From: Microcoleus sp. FACHB-831
Lineage (GTDB): Bacteria; Cyanobacteriota; Cyanobacteriia; Cyanobacteriales; FACHB-T130
Direction of reading: 5' to 3'
DNA: 64,000 bases
Assembly: GCF_014695585.1 (NCBI RefSeq)
Contig: NZ_JACJON010000053.1
Coordinates: 1 to 64,000 of the forward strand
Shown: positions 2,400-51,474 of the stretch, piece by piece
Numbering within the stretch: the stretch's first letter is position 1
Layout: every line of letters starts with the position of its first letter
Notes under the pieces: generated by a model
The model's input: only the letters and a program-made list of their open reading frames with translations
What the model was told of the DNA's origin: nothing
Database searches by the model: none
Position numbers and translations under genes: made by a program

Positions 2400-3002
2400 C
2401 TACCAAAACATAGAATCTATCAGGCGCGAACCTCCTGATTTCAAAGCCAACCAGGAGTGAACTATTGCAAAAACAATAAATATCGGCACTGATGTAAGGT
2501 GAACAATTCTCAGTGCTTGCCAATTACCAAAACAATCTACAATCCAGTAGAATTGGGCTGGTTTATACATACCTAATCCAGTAAATATGGCAAGCAACAA
2601 GACCGGAATTATGGCAGTGTAGGCTAACCGATGCCAAGCATAATTTTTGCGCTTGGGATTTTTACTAAGTTGTAAAGCTTTGAGATCTTTACTGCTGGCA
2701 AACCGATGCTTCCAGCGTCGGGTGATGAGAATGTAAATACCGTACCAAAGCAAATTGAGCGAAAATATCCACATAGCGGCAAAATGCCAATGTCTGCCTC
2801 CAGCAAGCCAACCACCTAGTAAAAATATGATGGGGAAATGCCAGCCAGTGCGTCCGCCAAAAACGGGGTTGGCGTTATAAATTTGCAGTCCGCTGGTAAT
2901 CATTAACAGCAGGCTAACGATATTAATCCAGTGGAAAGTTTTTGCCGCGATCGCCTGGTACGGTATAGTTCGACCTGTTTTAGATGGTGCAGATAAATTC
3001 AT
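2400..3002 (-). CDS. cytochrome b561-type membrane subunit
   Basis: Integral membrane di-heme cytochrome b of the bacterial b561/Ni-hydrogenase cytochrome type, about 200 residues with four or five hydrophobic segments. Candidate heme-ligand histidines are seen in KTFHWINIV near the N-terminus, GGRHWHF, and the late pair RIVHLTS and AIVHSWL. I start it at the ATG at 3002 (MNLSAPSK); the longer frame begins with TTG at 3026. It is followed after 9 bp by the exported molybdoenzyme, a common pairing in which the cytochrome links the quinone pool to the periplasmic enzyme. Role in the pair is inferred from context. Confidence 0.8.
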   Translation of the reverse strand: MNLSAPSKTGRTIPYQAIAAKTFHWINIVSLLLMITSGLQIYNANPVFGGRTGWHFPIIFLLGGWLAGGRHWHFAAMWIFSLNLLWYGIYILITRRWKHRFASSKDLKALQLSKNPKRKNYAWHRLAYTAIIPVLLLAIFTGLGMYKPAQFYWIVDCFGNWQALRIVHLTSVPIFIVFAIVHSWLALKSGGSRLIDSMFW

Positions 3003-3089
3003 ATACGCTGCCCGAAACCAGCACAAACTGGATTAATGGAATAAGTATGGCGATCGCCACAACGATTGCATATCACTTAAGAAAATATT

Positions 3090-3111
3090 CCCCGCACGAC
3101 TATGTGCGGGG
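3090..3111 (-). terminator. hairpin downstream of the lipoprotein gene
   Basis: CCCCGCAC and GTGCGGGG form an 8-bp GC-rich stem with a 6-nt loop. Read on the minus strand it is followed by AATATTTTCTT. It lies about 70 bp beyond the stop of the lipoprotein gene and before the cytochrome b gene, so it fits a factor-independent terminator separating the two. Confidence 0.6.
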
Positions 3112-3182
3112 TGCAATACAGTCTAAAGCAACTCCTCTAATTTTCCCCTACGGGAGTTGGCTAAACAAAAAGCAGGCAACAG

Positions 3183-3419
3183 TTATGGGGTCTTGGTCGG
3201 TGCCGGACTTGCTTTCTTAGCGGCAGGGGAGGGTGCTGCCTTGCTACCTGCGGCGGGCGAGGGGCTAGCTGCGGGCGATGCGTTGCTACCTGCGGCGGGA
3301 GTTTCCTTCTTGGTATCAGCGGCTGGGCTAGGGCCTTTGTTGCTCTCATCCCCACCACAGGAAGCCAGACCAGCCGTTAGTATCACACAGGCGATTAAAG
3401 AAAGCACTTTGAAATTCAT
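3183..3419 (-). CDS. small Ala/Pro-rich lipoprotein
   Basis: 78-residue secreted lipoprotein of unknown function. The start is the ATG at 3419 (MNFKVLSLIA), preceded by a strong GAGGAGA ribosome-binding site. A hydrophobic signal peptide ends in the lipobox LASC, placing the lipidated Cys around residue 22. The rest is low complexity: repeated PAAGS, SPAAS and SPAAKK blocks encoded by near-repeats of GC-rich DNA, typical of a flexible tether. No domain is recognisable. The ribosome-binding region is unusual because it is complementary to the conserved loop of the cyanobacterial sRNA Yfr1 (see the separate site). Confidence 0.7.
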   Translation of the reverse strand: MNFKVLSLIACVILTAGLASCGGDESNKGPSPAADTKKETPAAGSNASPAASPSPAAGSKAAPSPAAKKASPAPTKTP

Positions 3420-5912: not shown

Positions 5913-5961
5913 GCGAGGCAGAGCCTCGCAACCCTCGTTCCCAGGCTCCAGCCTGGGAACG
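5913..5961. repeat. tandem hairpins, CGTTCCCAGGCT dispersed repeat
   Basis: Two adjacent inverted repeats follow the exonuclease gene. The first is GCGAGGC-aga-GCCTCGC (5913-5929). The second has arms CGTTCCCAGGCT and AGCCTGGGAACG around a 2-nt CC loop (5936-5961). The second belongs to a family also found near 29754, 36176, 36579 and 50692 in this window. It may act as a terminator, but its scatter indicates a mobile or amplified repeat. Confidence 0.75.
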
Positions 5962-29710: not shown

Positions 29711-29785
29711 AGGCAAAAGGAAAAATTACAAGCCCTTTCTTTTGCCTTTTGCCCTCGTTCCCAGCCTTTGCGTGGGAATGCTTTT
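29711..29785. repeat. composite double-hairpin repeat between serA and prmA
   Basis: First, AGGCAAAAGG...CCTTTTGCC-type arms (GGCAAAAG at about 29712 and CTTTTGCC at about 29739). Second, a CTCGTTCCCAGC...CGTGGGAATGCTTTTT copy of the CGTTCCCAGGCT family (29754-29785). The same two-part layout recurs at 36545-36605. The repeat makes the apparent N-terminal extension of prmA. Confidence 0.7.
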
Positions 29786-36544: not shown

Positions 36545-36605
36545 GGCAAAAGTGAATTTTTTTCTTTTGCCTTTTGATCTCGTTCCCAGGCTCGGCCTGG
36601 GAATG
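36545..36605. repeat. composite double-hairpin repeat in cpcC-cpcD spacer
   Basis: GGCAAAAG and CTTTTGCC arms come first (36545-36572). Next is CTCGTTCCCAGGCTCGGCCTGGGAATG (36579-36605), a near-perfect hairpin of the CGTTCCCAGGCT family, followed by C and a T6 run. This is the same two-part design as at 29711-29785. In the cpc transcript it could act as a processing or attenuation signal. Confidence 0.75.
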
Positions 36606-48737: not shown

Positions 48738-51188
48738 CTAAACCACTTGGTAAATAAAGCTGAGAGTTGCCCAAGTGGCCACATCAAGCGAGTAAGTGTC
48801 AGAGGATGTAGAGGTAGCTTCGGATGCGATCGCCCCCCGTTCTCTAATCGCATTGGCGCTAGCATCGTGCAAATCTTGCAACAACGCTCGTGCCACATCC
48901 AGGGAGTTGTTCAACTCTGCTACTCGCTCTCGTTTTGGATTAGACAATGCTAAAGCGGCCATCGTCTGGGTGAAGGGTGCTTTACTACAAATTAGTTGCA
49001 TTTCCGCCAATCCTGCTGGGCCGGAAATAACCCATGAAAAAGATGCCGAAGGTTGCGGCAAAATTAGGGTAGTTTGTGGCTCGACGCGCGGTTCTTGGAA
49101 AGTGGTTTTTGTTTCCCCCGTCGCCGATACTTCTTGCGATTGCATAGGATAGAAAGCGATCGCGCTACCCGAACTATCCAGCCCCAAGATCATCAAATAC
49201 AGTGGTTCCTTGCCCTCGTTCTCAATCCGATACTGAATTCGGCTACCGACGGGTAAAGTAGGAATCCCCGCTTGACTCGTTCCCATGTTTTGGTTGGGGA
49301 CGCTAGCGCCAACCAAAGGCGATCGCAGAGTTTCTCTTAGCACTAGCACCTGTTCTTGAGGAGAAACCATCTCCAGCGTCGCCCTAACTCCCAACCGCGA
49401 AGAACCCTCATTCACCGTCAGACGCCACAACTTAGCCGCTAAAAGCGTTTTTAGTTTTGGAACCAAGCGATTGACAGCCACCTTCACCGCCTCTCCCGCT
49501 TGCCCTGCTGTATTGGGAAGTGGGTCGCGACCGAGAGAAAATAACCCATAACCCGTTTGAGAAAGCGCTATAACAGGGGCTTTGGGTGCGGCTGTAACTG
49601 ATGTATCAGCTAAATTAGTATGTGCAGCAGCTACATCGGTCGTTGTTTGCGATCGCACGTTGCCAAATAAATAATCAGCAGGTTGATCCACCGCCGCCAC
49701 AATTGAGGATGCACACGCAACGTTAGCAAAGGCGCTGGTTGCATCTACCCGCTCAATTCTCTCCAGACGAGCATCCAAGGCAATCTTCAAGCCGATATTG
49801 CGCGGCAGAACCCGCACGGCTTCTTGAACTAGCTGCCCCACCTGAACAGAGTTTTGGGGGCTTTGTGGTACTTGAGTTAAAGTTTCCTGACTTTTGACTT
49901 CTGGCTCTAGGCTTTTTAATTGCGCCTTGGCAGTCAGACCATCGCGAGAGCGAATTTGCAAGCGCAGGGGTTGATCGGAGGAACCGGGTAGGGGAACAAG
50001 GGTGAGTTGGCTATTTATCCCGTAATATTCCAGAACCGTTGCTGGAACGCCTGCTAGCCAAACTTGGGCAGCTTTGCCATTATCTTCAACAGCTACAACT
50101 ACACCATCTGCCCCCATAGTGGGGTTTGGTGAGAGGTTGTAAGCAAGTAGCGATCGCTCGTTACTTTTCTGTCCGCTTAACTGGGGTTGTTGCTCTTTAC
50201 CCACCAATTGCTCAACTACCCCAGCGGCTCTACTGAGGCTAATTTGAACTGTTGTTGGCGGCGTGGCTTGCCAAAGATGTTGAGTAAGAGCATAGGTAAA
50301 CAGCCCAGCGCTGAAACCACCCCAAGGAGCCTCGCTTGCTAGTTGACTCGGCCCTGCTGCTGCTAGAACAATACCTGGCATCTGACCCAAGTCGCGCTTT
50401 ATCTTCAGCGGATCGGATGAAGAATTGAGGCGGCGTAGGAGTTCTTCTTGAAAAGCGAGTTCTTCTAAACTGGGGCTATCTGCCGAAAGGCTGGCGCGGG
50501 ATCGAATCCGCAGATTGCTTTGGACGACAGTACCGGGATCTGTGTAGCTGGTATCGAGAACAGTGGTTACTTGGTCGGTAGCAAGCGATCGCAACAGCAA
50601 GATTAGCGTCTCTTCCAGCAAATCGTTGACCCCTTGTGTCTCCTTCGCTGACAGGACGCCATCAACAGGTACTAGGGAATTTTGGATTTTGCTCGTTCCC
50701 AAACTCTGCTTGGGAATAGAATTTTGGATTAGCGAATTTTCCTCTTGTGGTACATCTATCCCAGATGCATCCATCATCTTCACGCGGCTACCATATCCGC
50801 TGAAGTGGAAAAGCACAACATCGCCCTCACGCGCCTGATTCGTTAGATGCTCTAGGAAAGCCGTCTCAATATTCTGCCGTGTGGCTTCTTTGTCCGTCAC
50901 GCTGAGAATATCGCCAGGTTTAAAACCAAACCTGTGAATCAACAGTTCCCGTTGCAACTCTACATCAGTGACACAACCCCCCAACGCCGCACTGCGGGGG
51001 TACTGATTTATTCCCACAAGTAGAGCCAACTTCCGCCCGTTCGTTTGTGCCAGAGCTTGATAATAGCGATCCAGCAAAGGTACTGCAAAGCTTTTATCCG
51101 CCAGTATCGATAGCGCCGTTTCGCTCGCGCCCAGTGCTGCCAGCGCCAAACCAGCCTGTTGCAAAAAAGTCCGCCGCTTCAGTCCCAT
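48738..51188 (-). CDS. pseudo-caspase (caspase fold, catalytic His and Cys replaced)
   Basis: 816 residues. Tat signal: LKRRTFLQQAG. A peptidase C14/caspase p20 domain follows: KLALLVGINQYP, LGGCVTDVELQRELLIHRFGF, and the position of catalytic His as FHFSGYGSRV (Tyr132). The catalytic Cys position is TTVLDTSYTD (Ser214). Both dyad residues are changed (H to Y, C to S), so cleavage is unlikely; such 'YS' pseudo-orthocaspases are known in cyanobacteria. The C-terminal half (after about 370) contains SH3/DUF4384-like stretches (GSRIQYRIENEGKEPLYLMIL). Residues about 152-171 are a repeat-derived insertion. Function probably scaffolding or regulation outside the cytoplasm. Confidence 0.82.
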   Translation of the reverse strand: MGLKRRTFLQQAGLALAALGASETALSILADKSFAVPLLDRYYQALAQTNGRKLALLVGINQYPRSAALGGCVTDVELQRELLIHRFGFKPGDILSVTDKEATRQNIETAFLEHLTNQAREGDVVLFHFSGYGSRVKMMDASGIDVPQEENSLIQNSIPKQSLGTSKIQNSLVPVDGVLSAKETQGVNDLLEETLILLLRSLATDQVTTVLDTSYTDPGTVVQSNLRIRSRASLSADSPSLEELAFQEELLRRLNSSSDPLKIKRDLGQMPGIVLAAAGPSQLASEAPWGGFSAGLFTYALTQHLWQATPPTTVQISLSRAAGVVEQLVGKEQQPQLSGQKSNERSLLAYNLSPNPTMGADGVVVAVEDNGKAAQVWLAGVPATVLEYYGINSQLTLVPLPGSSDQPLRLQIRSRDGLTAKAQLKSLEPEVKSQETLTQVPQSPQNSVQVGQLVQEAVRVLPRNIGLKIALDARLERIERVDATSAFANVACASSIVAAVDQPADYLFGNVRSQTTTDVAAAHTNLADTSVTAAPKAPVIALSQTGYGLFSLGRDPLPNTAGQAGEAVKVAVNRLVPKLKTLLAAKLWRLTVNEGSSRLGVRATLEMVSPQEQVLVLRETLRSPLVGASVPNQNMGTSQAGIPTLPVGSRIQYRIENEGKEPLYLMILGLDSSGSAIAFYPMQSQEVSATGETKTTFQEPRVEPQTTLILPQPSASFSWVISGPAGLAEMQLICSKAPFTQTMAALALSNPKRERVAELNNSLDVARALLQDLHDASANAIRERGAIASEATSTSSDTYSLDVATWATLSFIYQVV
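50677..50730. repeat. repeat insertion inside the pseudo-caspase gene
   Basis: A CGTTCCCAGGCT-family core (CTCGTTCCCAAACTCTG... through CTTGGGAATAG, about 50692-50717) is flanked by perfect 12-bp direct copies of GAATTTTGGATT (50677-50688 and 50719-50730). In frame it gives IQNSIPKQSLGTSKIQNS, with IQNS twice. The direct repeats look like a target-site duplication or a second repeated unit. Confidence 0.75.
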
Positions 51189-51474
51189 TCCTTCAATTTT
51201 CCTCTGCCATCCCAGGTATCCTGGCAGAGCCTACCATTTCTATCCTATGCGTAGTTGGTAACGCCTCATGTCACGGGAGACACAAAGGCGTTTCCTCTTA
51301 TACTATTTTGGATTTTAGATTTTGGATTTTGGATTTTTTAAGCCCCGCCAGTAGGTAGTAGAGACGCGAAGCACAATTTCGCGTCTCTACTTCAATCCAC
51401 AATCCTAAACCCAAATAGTATTAGCCGCCTCAATCCGCAGACTCCATACGCAGCGTCTGGAATCCAGATATAGC

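Follow-up and report, generated by a model that had tools for sequence, protein, structure and literature searches.

Hairpin locus and host gene

The window, a 64,000 nt stretch of contig NZ_JACJON010000053.1 of Microcoleus sp. FACHB-831, carries on its minus strand a gene for an 816 aa caspase-like protein, within which lies a 28 nt hairpin element flanked by heptanucleotide units of the ATTTTGG type. In a preliminary description of this DNA the hairpin was taken for an in-frame member of a repeat family, and the perfect 12 bp words on either side of it for a possible target-site duplication that could show how the family moves. The hairpin does lie inside the open reading frame (ORF) 48738–51188, and the family is confirmed genome-wide against controls. 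The flanking words are better explained otherwise: a dispersed, CTCG-tagged hairpin probably (at about 0.8) sits in the middle of a heptamer array that is older than the hairpin and was already in the caspase linker between the former catalytic sites. That figure covers the anatomy and the order of events; the exchange by which the hairpin may have arrived is rated separately and lower. The features of the locus are as follows.

48738–51188, minus strand: host gene, caspase-like, pseudo-orthocaspase type (SGYG, DTSY), 816 aa, PF00656 and PF14326
50677–50688, plus strand: first GAATTTTGGATT word, ten bases of which are array; the word is also found in hairpin-free orthologues
50679–50691, plus strand: left arm of the heptamer array, ATTTTGGATTTTG
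50692–50719, plus strand: 28 nt hairpin element, CTCG-TTCCCAAACTCTGCTTGGGAA-TAG (a 27 nt element plus one base that keeps the 7 nt phase)
50696–50716, plus strand: palindromic core, outer stem of 7 bp
50719–50730, plus strand: second GAATTTTGGATT word, starting on the last base of the 28 nt element
50720–50730, plus strand: right arm of the heptamer array, AATTTTGGATT

The two copies of GAATTTTGGATT are exact, as the preliminary description had it, their positions are 42 nt apart, and the sequence that separates them is CTCG-TTCCCAAACTCTGCTTGGGAA-TAG. Five matches to this word occur in the window at no more than one mismatch (0.86 expected). Ten of the twelve bases (ATTTTGGATT) belong to the array in both copies. 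The leading GA of the left copy is gene sequence, and that of the right copy is made up of the last base of the 28 nt element and a base that is G in three hairpin-free orthologues (L016, L017 and L013). The exact 12 bp identity is thus ten array bases plus a coincident GA. On the coding (minus) strand the outer 7 bp stem of the core is followed by a G-T pair, a C-G pair and a 3 nt loop; an A-C mismatch occupies the eighth pair position on the plus strand. Folded as single-stranded DNA, the 54 nt stretch is unexceptional (7 bp stem, z = -1.34, 23/200 shuffles equally good). The hairpin is translated as IPKQSLGTS and the whole stretch as LIQNS-IPKQSLGTS-KIQNS, so that the duplicated IQNS noticed earlier is indeed present on each side. 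Four palindromic cores of this type occur in the window (0.04 expected), and the window has no Rfam matches.

The host protein matches the Pfam caspase domain (PF00656) and DUF4384. Its alignment shows SGYG and DTSY at places where we take SGHG and the catalytic Cys to be the expected motifs, i.e., a p20 caspase domain with His replaced by Tyr and Cys by Ser. Given these presumed motifs, the location of the insert between two former catalytic sites fits the positions of SGYG and DTSY. The linker varies widely among orthologues in length, and also in sequence, in keeping with a host that tolerates the insert. A structure prediction for the caspase from five sequences had a mean predicted local distance difference test score (pLDDT) of 31.6 and was not used. 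To judge from SGYG and DTSY, the host belongs to the Tyr/Ser pseudo-orthocaspase type outlined in PMC6426788.

Hairpin-free orthologues of the host gene

The linker was read in 33 of 34 orthologous loci, including the window's copy (L001); one locus without the motif (L015) was left out, and L016 and L031 are apparently one contig. Only L001 has the hairpin, which is absent from the other 32 linkers, including those of the same family. At the place of the hairpin L013 carries four perfect heptamers (ATCCAAA x4), and L016, L017 and L031 carry degenerate heptamers; GAATTTTGGATT occurs in these three once, on the left, and GGATTTTGGATT takes the right-hand flank at a distance of 21 nt. Because both flank words exist in orthologues without the hairpin, a duplication at this locus is the wrong reading; and because these hairpin-free orthologues carry the array, parsimony places the array before the hairpin in this gene.

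The window's genome (G000) agrees. At 45 copies of the family that lie outside arrays, abutting direct repeats are no longer than in re-paired flanks. Target-site duplication on insertion, as expected of a miniature inverted-repeat transposable element, was found neither at the locus nor in these 45 copies. Target-site duplication at this locus is rejected on the flanks of L013, L016, L017 and L031 together with the lack of repeat excess in the 45 copies.

Hairpin family in the genome

Palindromic cores number 97 in G000, against 7 in the reversed control. A search of the 6.42 Mb genome for TCG-tagged copies returned 85 rows at 73 distinct places (reversed control, 0), of which 72 were kept; L095, with a 19 nt core lacking the family's inner sequence, was left out before counting. 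The family consensus is CTCG-TTCCCAGGCTCTGCCTGGGAA-TG, and the tag is CTCG in 65 copies, ATCG in four and TTCG in three (TCG being fixed by the search pattern). As the pattern also fixed the outer six stem pairs, conservation was tested on the inner pairs of the 50 cores of 21 nt. The 9-13 pair forms in 48/50 cores, above all shuffles (mean 39.2, maximum 45), the 8-14 pair in 41/50 (shuffled mean 36.0, maximum 43), and pair 7-15 shows no excess (40/50; shuffled mean 39.5).

Ten of the 72 copies sit in TTTTGGA arrays, 17–19 at TTTTGCC-like arrays (19 or 17 by an automatic rule, some members by eye not being array-borne) and 43–45 outside arrays. Among the 45 copies outside arrays, 30 have a second palindrome of the GAGGC...CCT type at most 40 nt away. 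TTTTGGA arrays themselves are common, with 262 overlapping matches to an array 16-mer at no more than one mismatch (control, 2); among the 100 of these matches listed, one hairpin-bearing array was recognised (C67:52326).

Two places in the genome match Y1_Tnp, C25 (intact) and C39 (broken), and no tagged hairpin copy was found in the 6 kb round each (L136, L137). C25 is adjoined by its own palindromes, of the GTAGCCGCG type. A transposase of the RAYT kind (REP-associated tyrosine transposase, REP denoting repetitive extragenic palindromic sequences) was considered as mobiliser and rejected: a Y1 transposase gene exists, yet it carries other palindromes. In L136 (2740–3780) the Y1/RAYT-like gene (2823–3362) has several flanking copies of a palindrome of its own, of the GTAGCCGCGAATTC...TTCGCCAGG type, which is unrelated to the hairpin of the window.

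Heptamer phase and length of the composite

When the hairpin is removed from the ten TTTTGGA copies, period-7 matches across the junction peak at a removal length of 28 nt (58/70); nine other lengths give at most 35/70. The TTTTGCC class behaves similarly (83/133 with 28 nt removed, at most 69 at other lengths). In a stricter test, in which copies with both flanks array-like were chosen blind to phase, nine TTTTGGA copies were retained (3.2 expected from re-paired flanks), eight of them in one phase, as were seven TTTTGCC copies (2.8 expected), all seven in that same phase. Copies outside arrays show no 7 nt period across the junction.

Bare arrays measure 31 nt in the caspase gene (L013, L016), in the lipid-A-disaccharide-synthase-like (LpxB-like) gene of G036 and in PyrC of G001 and G003. 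The composites span 52 nt, and in 7/10 copies the arms are of 11 + 13 nt (by eye; L132 has a longer core). A hairpin-bearing array therefore exceeds the bare 31 nt array of an orthologue by 21 nt, or seven codons, and since 31 and 52 are equal modulo 3, the reading frame is kept. All six frames of the consensus composite lack stops, which is likewise true of 87/20000 shuffles.

Array-borne hairpins as coding sequence

With 50 or more open codons on both sides as the criterion, 12/72 copies are in frame. These include 7/10 TTTTGGA copies but only 5/62 others (Fisher p = 5e-5), and the five include the second L056 copy and L064, which are open frames only. Bare arrays in such frames amount to 6/15 in a sample taken in contig order. 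The hosts of the seven in-frame TTTTGGA copies, named by NCBIfam and Pfam, are:

L001 (window locus): pseudo-caspase
L039: nitrate-reductase-like molybdopterin enzyme
L042: glycogen debranching enzyme (GDE)
L060: QueA
L117: anthranilate/aminodeoxychorismate synthase component I (PabB/TrpE-like)
L123: LpxB-like protein (family match below cut-off; orthologues in four genomes, 64–73% identity)
L127: dihydroorotase (PyrC)

All seven use the strand on which the array encodes a hydrophilic, NPKSKIQN-like peptide, and each of the three frames of that strand is used among them.

Orthologues of these hosts were aligned from four genomes. The LpxB-like gene of G036 has a bare four-unit array, across which the G000 gene is seven codons longer. 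In PyrC, both G001 and G003 show bare arrays that are degenerate in part; for PabB, G003 has the same heptamer in a shorter array and G001 an array of CCCCAAT. QueA of G036 likewise has a bare heptamer array in the corresponding stretch. At the place of the CTCG hairpin of G000, the NarB-like gene of G003 (L340) has an array of the heptamer ACTCAAA with a different hairpin-like insert, of the TTAGCG/AGCGG type, inside it. Several host stretches are thus prone to repeats in more than one genus, and the bare array is the simpler state wherever the same heptamer occurs without the hairpin.

Occurrence in other genomes

The left-junction pattern, ATTTTG followed after 0–2 nt by the CTCG hairpin, was detected in 11/388 genomes of the order (G000 included) and 8/149 genera. 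Outside G000 it marks 16 places, 12 of which are within open frames. Both flanks are array-like (at most 2 mismatches in 11) at 10/16, distributed over seven genomes (G036, G076, G092, G124, G151, G164 and G280); the places in G061 and G104 are not array-borne. Eight of the ten both-arm places are in open frames, and these represent six gene sites because one RND-transporter site accounts for three of them, in G124, G164 and G280. At the same transporter site G092 has a drifted copy of the hairpin. The hosts according to Pfam are a CBS/poly-A-polymerase-head (CCA-like) protein, an AAA-WD40 protein, a response regulator-GGDEF protein, a WD40 protein, an RND efflux protein (AcrB family) and a TPR protein.

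Hosts without arms on both sides include a polyketide synthase, at the linker between ketosynthase and acyltransferase, and the ATPase domains of histidine kinases with tandem hairpins. In these kinases (L370, L360 and L371, around 1500) the tandem in-frame hairpins give HSQAGAWER-like repeats, which precede the DTGIGI motif of the ATPase domain by a short distance. At the place of the G151 composite in the CCA-like gene, G092 (L389) and G024 (L391) have short tandem repeats of other kinds (GGAGCAGA-like, ACTCAGA/C). The response-regulator gene of G076 (L366) contains a 114 nt in-frame segment with array and hairpin that is absent from its congener G036 (L393); the segment ends in AATGAC at both sides in G076, and G036 has AATTAC.

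In-place inversion between congeners

G001 and G004, which belong to one genus, have 37 hairpin loci in common at which both flanks are alike. The cores of 16 are identical, seven are exact reverse complements, three are nearer the reverse complement and ten nearer the direct sequence, and one is of another length. The flipped pairs with unchanged flanks are L214/L289, L222/L285, L243/L305, L245/L286, L260/L282, L272/L310 and L274/L278, and L259/L315 is an additional flipped pair. The hairpin loops are thus inverted in place between the congeners, and template switching or cruciform exchange would produce such an inversion. A further 17 copies in G001 (16 loci) have no partner in G004, which itself has 12 unpaired copies. 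Fifteen of the 16 loci were located in G004, and inspection by eye found a drifted hairpin at ten and changed surroundings at five. None of the 15 loci examined shows a clean empty site in G004, and these comparisons give no sign of recent mobility in that genus.

Origin of the composite

How the hairpin came to lie in the array is less certain than the order of events. We tentatively favour, at somewhat short of even odds, an exchange between arrays: the bare array of the caspase gene would have recombined, or undergone template switching, with a hairpin-bearing array elsewhere, so that the 52 nt composite replaced 31 nt of array, and such a swap makes a target duplication unnecessary. Composites may then persist in genes by being stop-free in six frames, by encoding a hydrophilic peptide of the NPKSKIQN type and by lying in stretches that already vary in length. 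The main competitor is a direct, site-preferring insertion of 28 nt into the array (SDR-like, after the small dispersed repeats discussed below, or IS200/IS605-like) without duplication, one heptamer having been lost by slippage and the product selected for frame. Such an event is possible, if on the doubtful side. The junction TTTTG^GA is alike in G000 and in other genera, 28 - 7 gives the observed +21 nt in the caspase and LpxB-like arrays, and NarB of G003 has another hairpin-like insert within another heptamer array. The arms, however, hardly vary (11 + 13 nt), and this includes L132, which is outside long ORFs; such constancy counts against independent insertion and slippage because that route does not predict it. 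In addition, the sole intact Y1 transposase gene found in G000 adjoins a different palindrome family. No support for a transposase route was found here. That the hairpin is a transposable element which made a 12 bp target-site duplication is very improbable: the two exact flanking copies, the 114 nt presence/absence segment of G076/G036 with AATGAC at both ends and a modest excess of abutting 4 to 6 bp repeats in G001 and G004 would fit, but both flank words are already array units in hairpin-free orthologues, the 45 non-array copies of G000 lack such an excess, and the right copy overlaps the element. An ancestral hairpin that every other orthologue lost, through slippage of one flanking repeat on the other, is no more credible. 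Flanking direct repeats generally favour deletions of this kind; with 32/33 linkers free of the hairpin, including those of the same family, a single gain is simpler. A chance meeting of an AT-rich repeat and a small inverted repeat would suit a low-constraint linker that varies in length and sequence, as well as the modest local fold (z only -1.34), but it is contradicted by the genome-wide counts against controls, the fixed phase and the recurrence of both arms in seven other genomes, and its probability is practically negligible.

Several observations weigh against the preferred account of an older array that acquired the hairpin by exchange. No donor-recipient exchange was observed, and a single 28 nt insertion with loss of one heptamer explains the lengths equally well. 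Abutting direct repeats of at least 4 bp occur at 10/54 copies in G001 (4.8 expected) and at 6/49 in G004 (3.8 expected), and the 114 nt difference between G076 and G036 could be either an insertion with a 6 bp duplication or a deletion. In G003 the PabB array falls short of 31 nt, and the QueA arrays consist of other heptamers (AAATCCC units in G036, CCCCAAT-like units in G001). No array of the TTTTGGA type was found in the three GDE orthologues, and no bare array of that type in the CCA-like gene and most RND orthologues, so that the composite may have arrived whole in these genes. One copy (L056) does not share the common phase, the right arm of L117 has decayed too far for the phase test, and gene placement is based on open frames, family matches and orthologues.

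A wider and rather unlikely extension of the array-to-array exchange is that heptamer arrays in cyanobacterial genes form a genome-wide network of short homologous landing pads for the spread of the hairpin. It would include a composite that is frame-equivalent to the bare four-unit array and readable in six frames, and a hairpin that flips in place. If true, this would be a transposase-free mobile unit pre-adapted to coding sequence, from which enzymes, regulators and transporters in several genera would gain new peptide loops.

Relation to known repeats

The nearest known repeats are the small dispersed repeats SDR1-8 of Nostoc and relatives, reportedly described by Elhai et al. in 2008 (Genome Res 18:1484) as often embedded in heptameric tandem repeats. 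The present family resembles them in being cyanobacterial, dispersed and 21–27 nt long with a conserved hairpin (72 copies), and in its embedding in heptameric repeats, seen here in the phase tests. Enrichment in reading frames and in-place flipping, both seen here, are not known to be reported for SDRs. The occurrence of SDR5 in HIP1 is touched on in PMC4390886.

REPs, and the REPINs formed from them, are associated with a RAYT transposase, as outlined in PMC3116915 and PMC3733652. The likeness to these lies in a tetranucleotide tag next to a short palindrome, in high copy number and in the second palindrome of 30/45 non-array copies. Unlike the REPs outlined there, the family has the tag CTCG and not GTAG or CGTC, and its tagged copies do not flank a RAYT-like gene in the 6 kb round the two Y1_Tnp places.

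In chloroplast genomes, hairpin-loop mini-inversions are small loops that flip between relatives with unchanged flanks; the present case differs in concerning a dispersed bacterial repeat, at 7/37 shared loci. Heptanucleotide repeats of cyanobacteria are known as short tandemly repeated repetitive (STRR) sequences. Repeats of the GGGGA(T/C)T type are summarised in PMC4692102 as dispersed, with four units preferred. The host array is of the same kind, with seven-base units; the contrast drawn with that summary is that 6/15 sampled bare arrays and 7/10 hairpin-bearing arrays lie in long open frames.

The best-known coding palindromes are those of Rickettsia and of some genomes rich in REPs. In-frame intragenic REPs or palindromic repeats are outlined in PMC3733652 and the Rickettsia palindromic elements (RPEs), of about 150 bp, in PMC10969869. 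Like RPEs, the present hairpin is an in-frame palindromic insert in unrelated genes that is absent from orthologues. By the published outline it differs in size (a 28 nt element or 52 nt composite against about 150 bp), and also in being nested in a heptamer array that exists without the hairpin in orthologues. RPEs and in-frame REPs, so far as they are outlined there, are the nearest parallel for the coding aspect. Among the literature matches listed, the arrangement is not described in titles or the starts of abstracts, subscription papers being largely outside that scope, and matches to the repeat's own letters are unrelated by title.

We read the repeat as a cyanobacterial hairpin, dispersed through the genome, that is nested in heptamer arrays and is tolerated as a protein-coding palindrome. 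What looked like a transposition scar becomes a testable case of nested repeats, tandem array first and hairpin second, both read as protein. A frame-safe coding palindrome much smaller than those of Rickettsia recurs in several cyanobacterial genera, where its hosts are metabolic enzymes, regulators and transporters, and in other genera the insert stretches hold other heptamers or another hairpin. The spread of very small repeats without a visible transposase is thereby open to direct testing by comparison of close strains.

Other features of the window

The three further copies of the core and a bare array are located as follows.

5938–5959, plus strand: core copy outside arrays, adjoining a GAGGC/GCCTC palindrome
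29758–29778, plus strand: core copy adjoining TTTTGCC-type heptamers
36583–36603, plus strand: core copy adjoining TTTTGCC-type heptamers
51311–51337, plus strand: bare heptamer array without hairpin, upstream of the host gene

The bare array is followed, at 51358–51390, by a GTAGAGACGCG...CGCGTCTCTAC palindrome that starts with GTAG and possibly represents another REP-like family.

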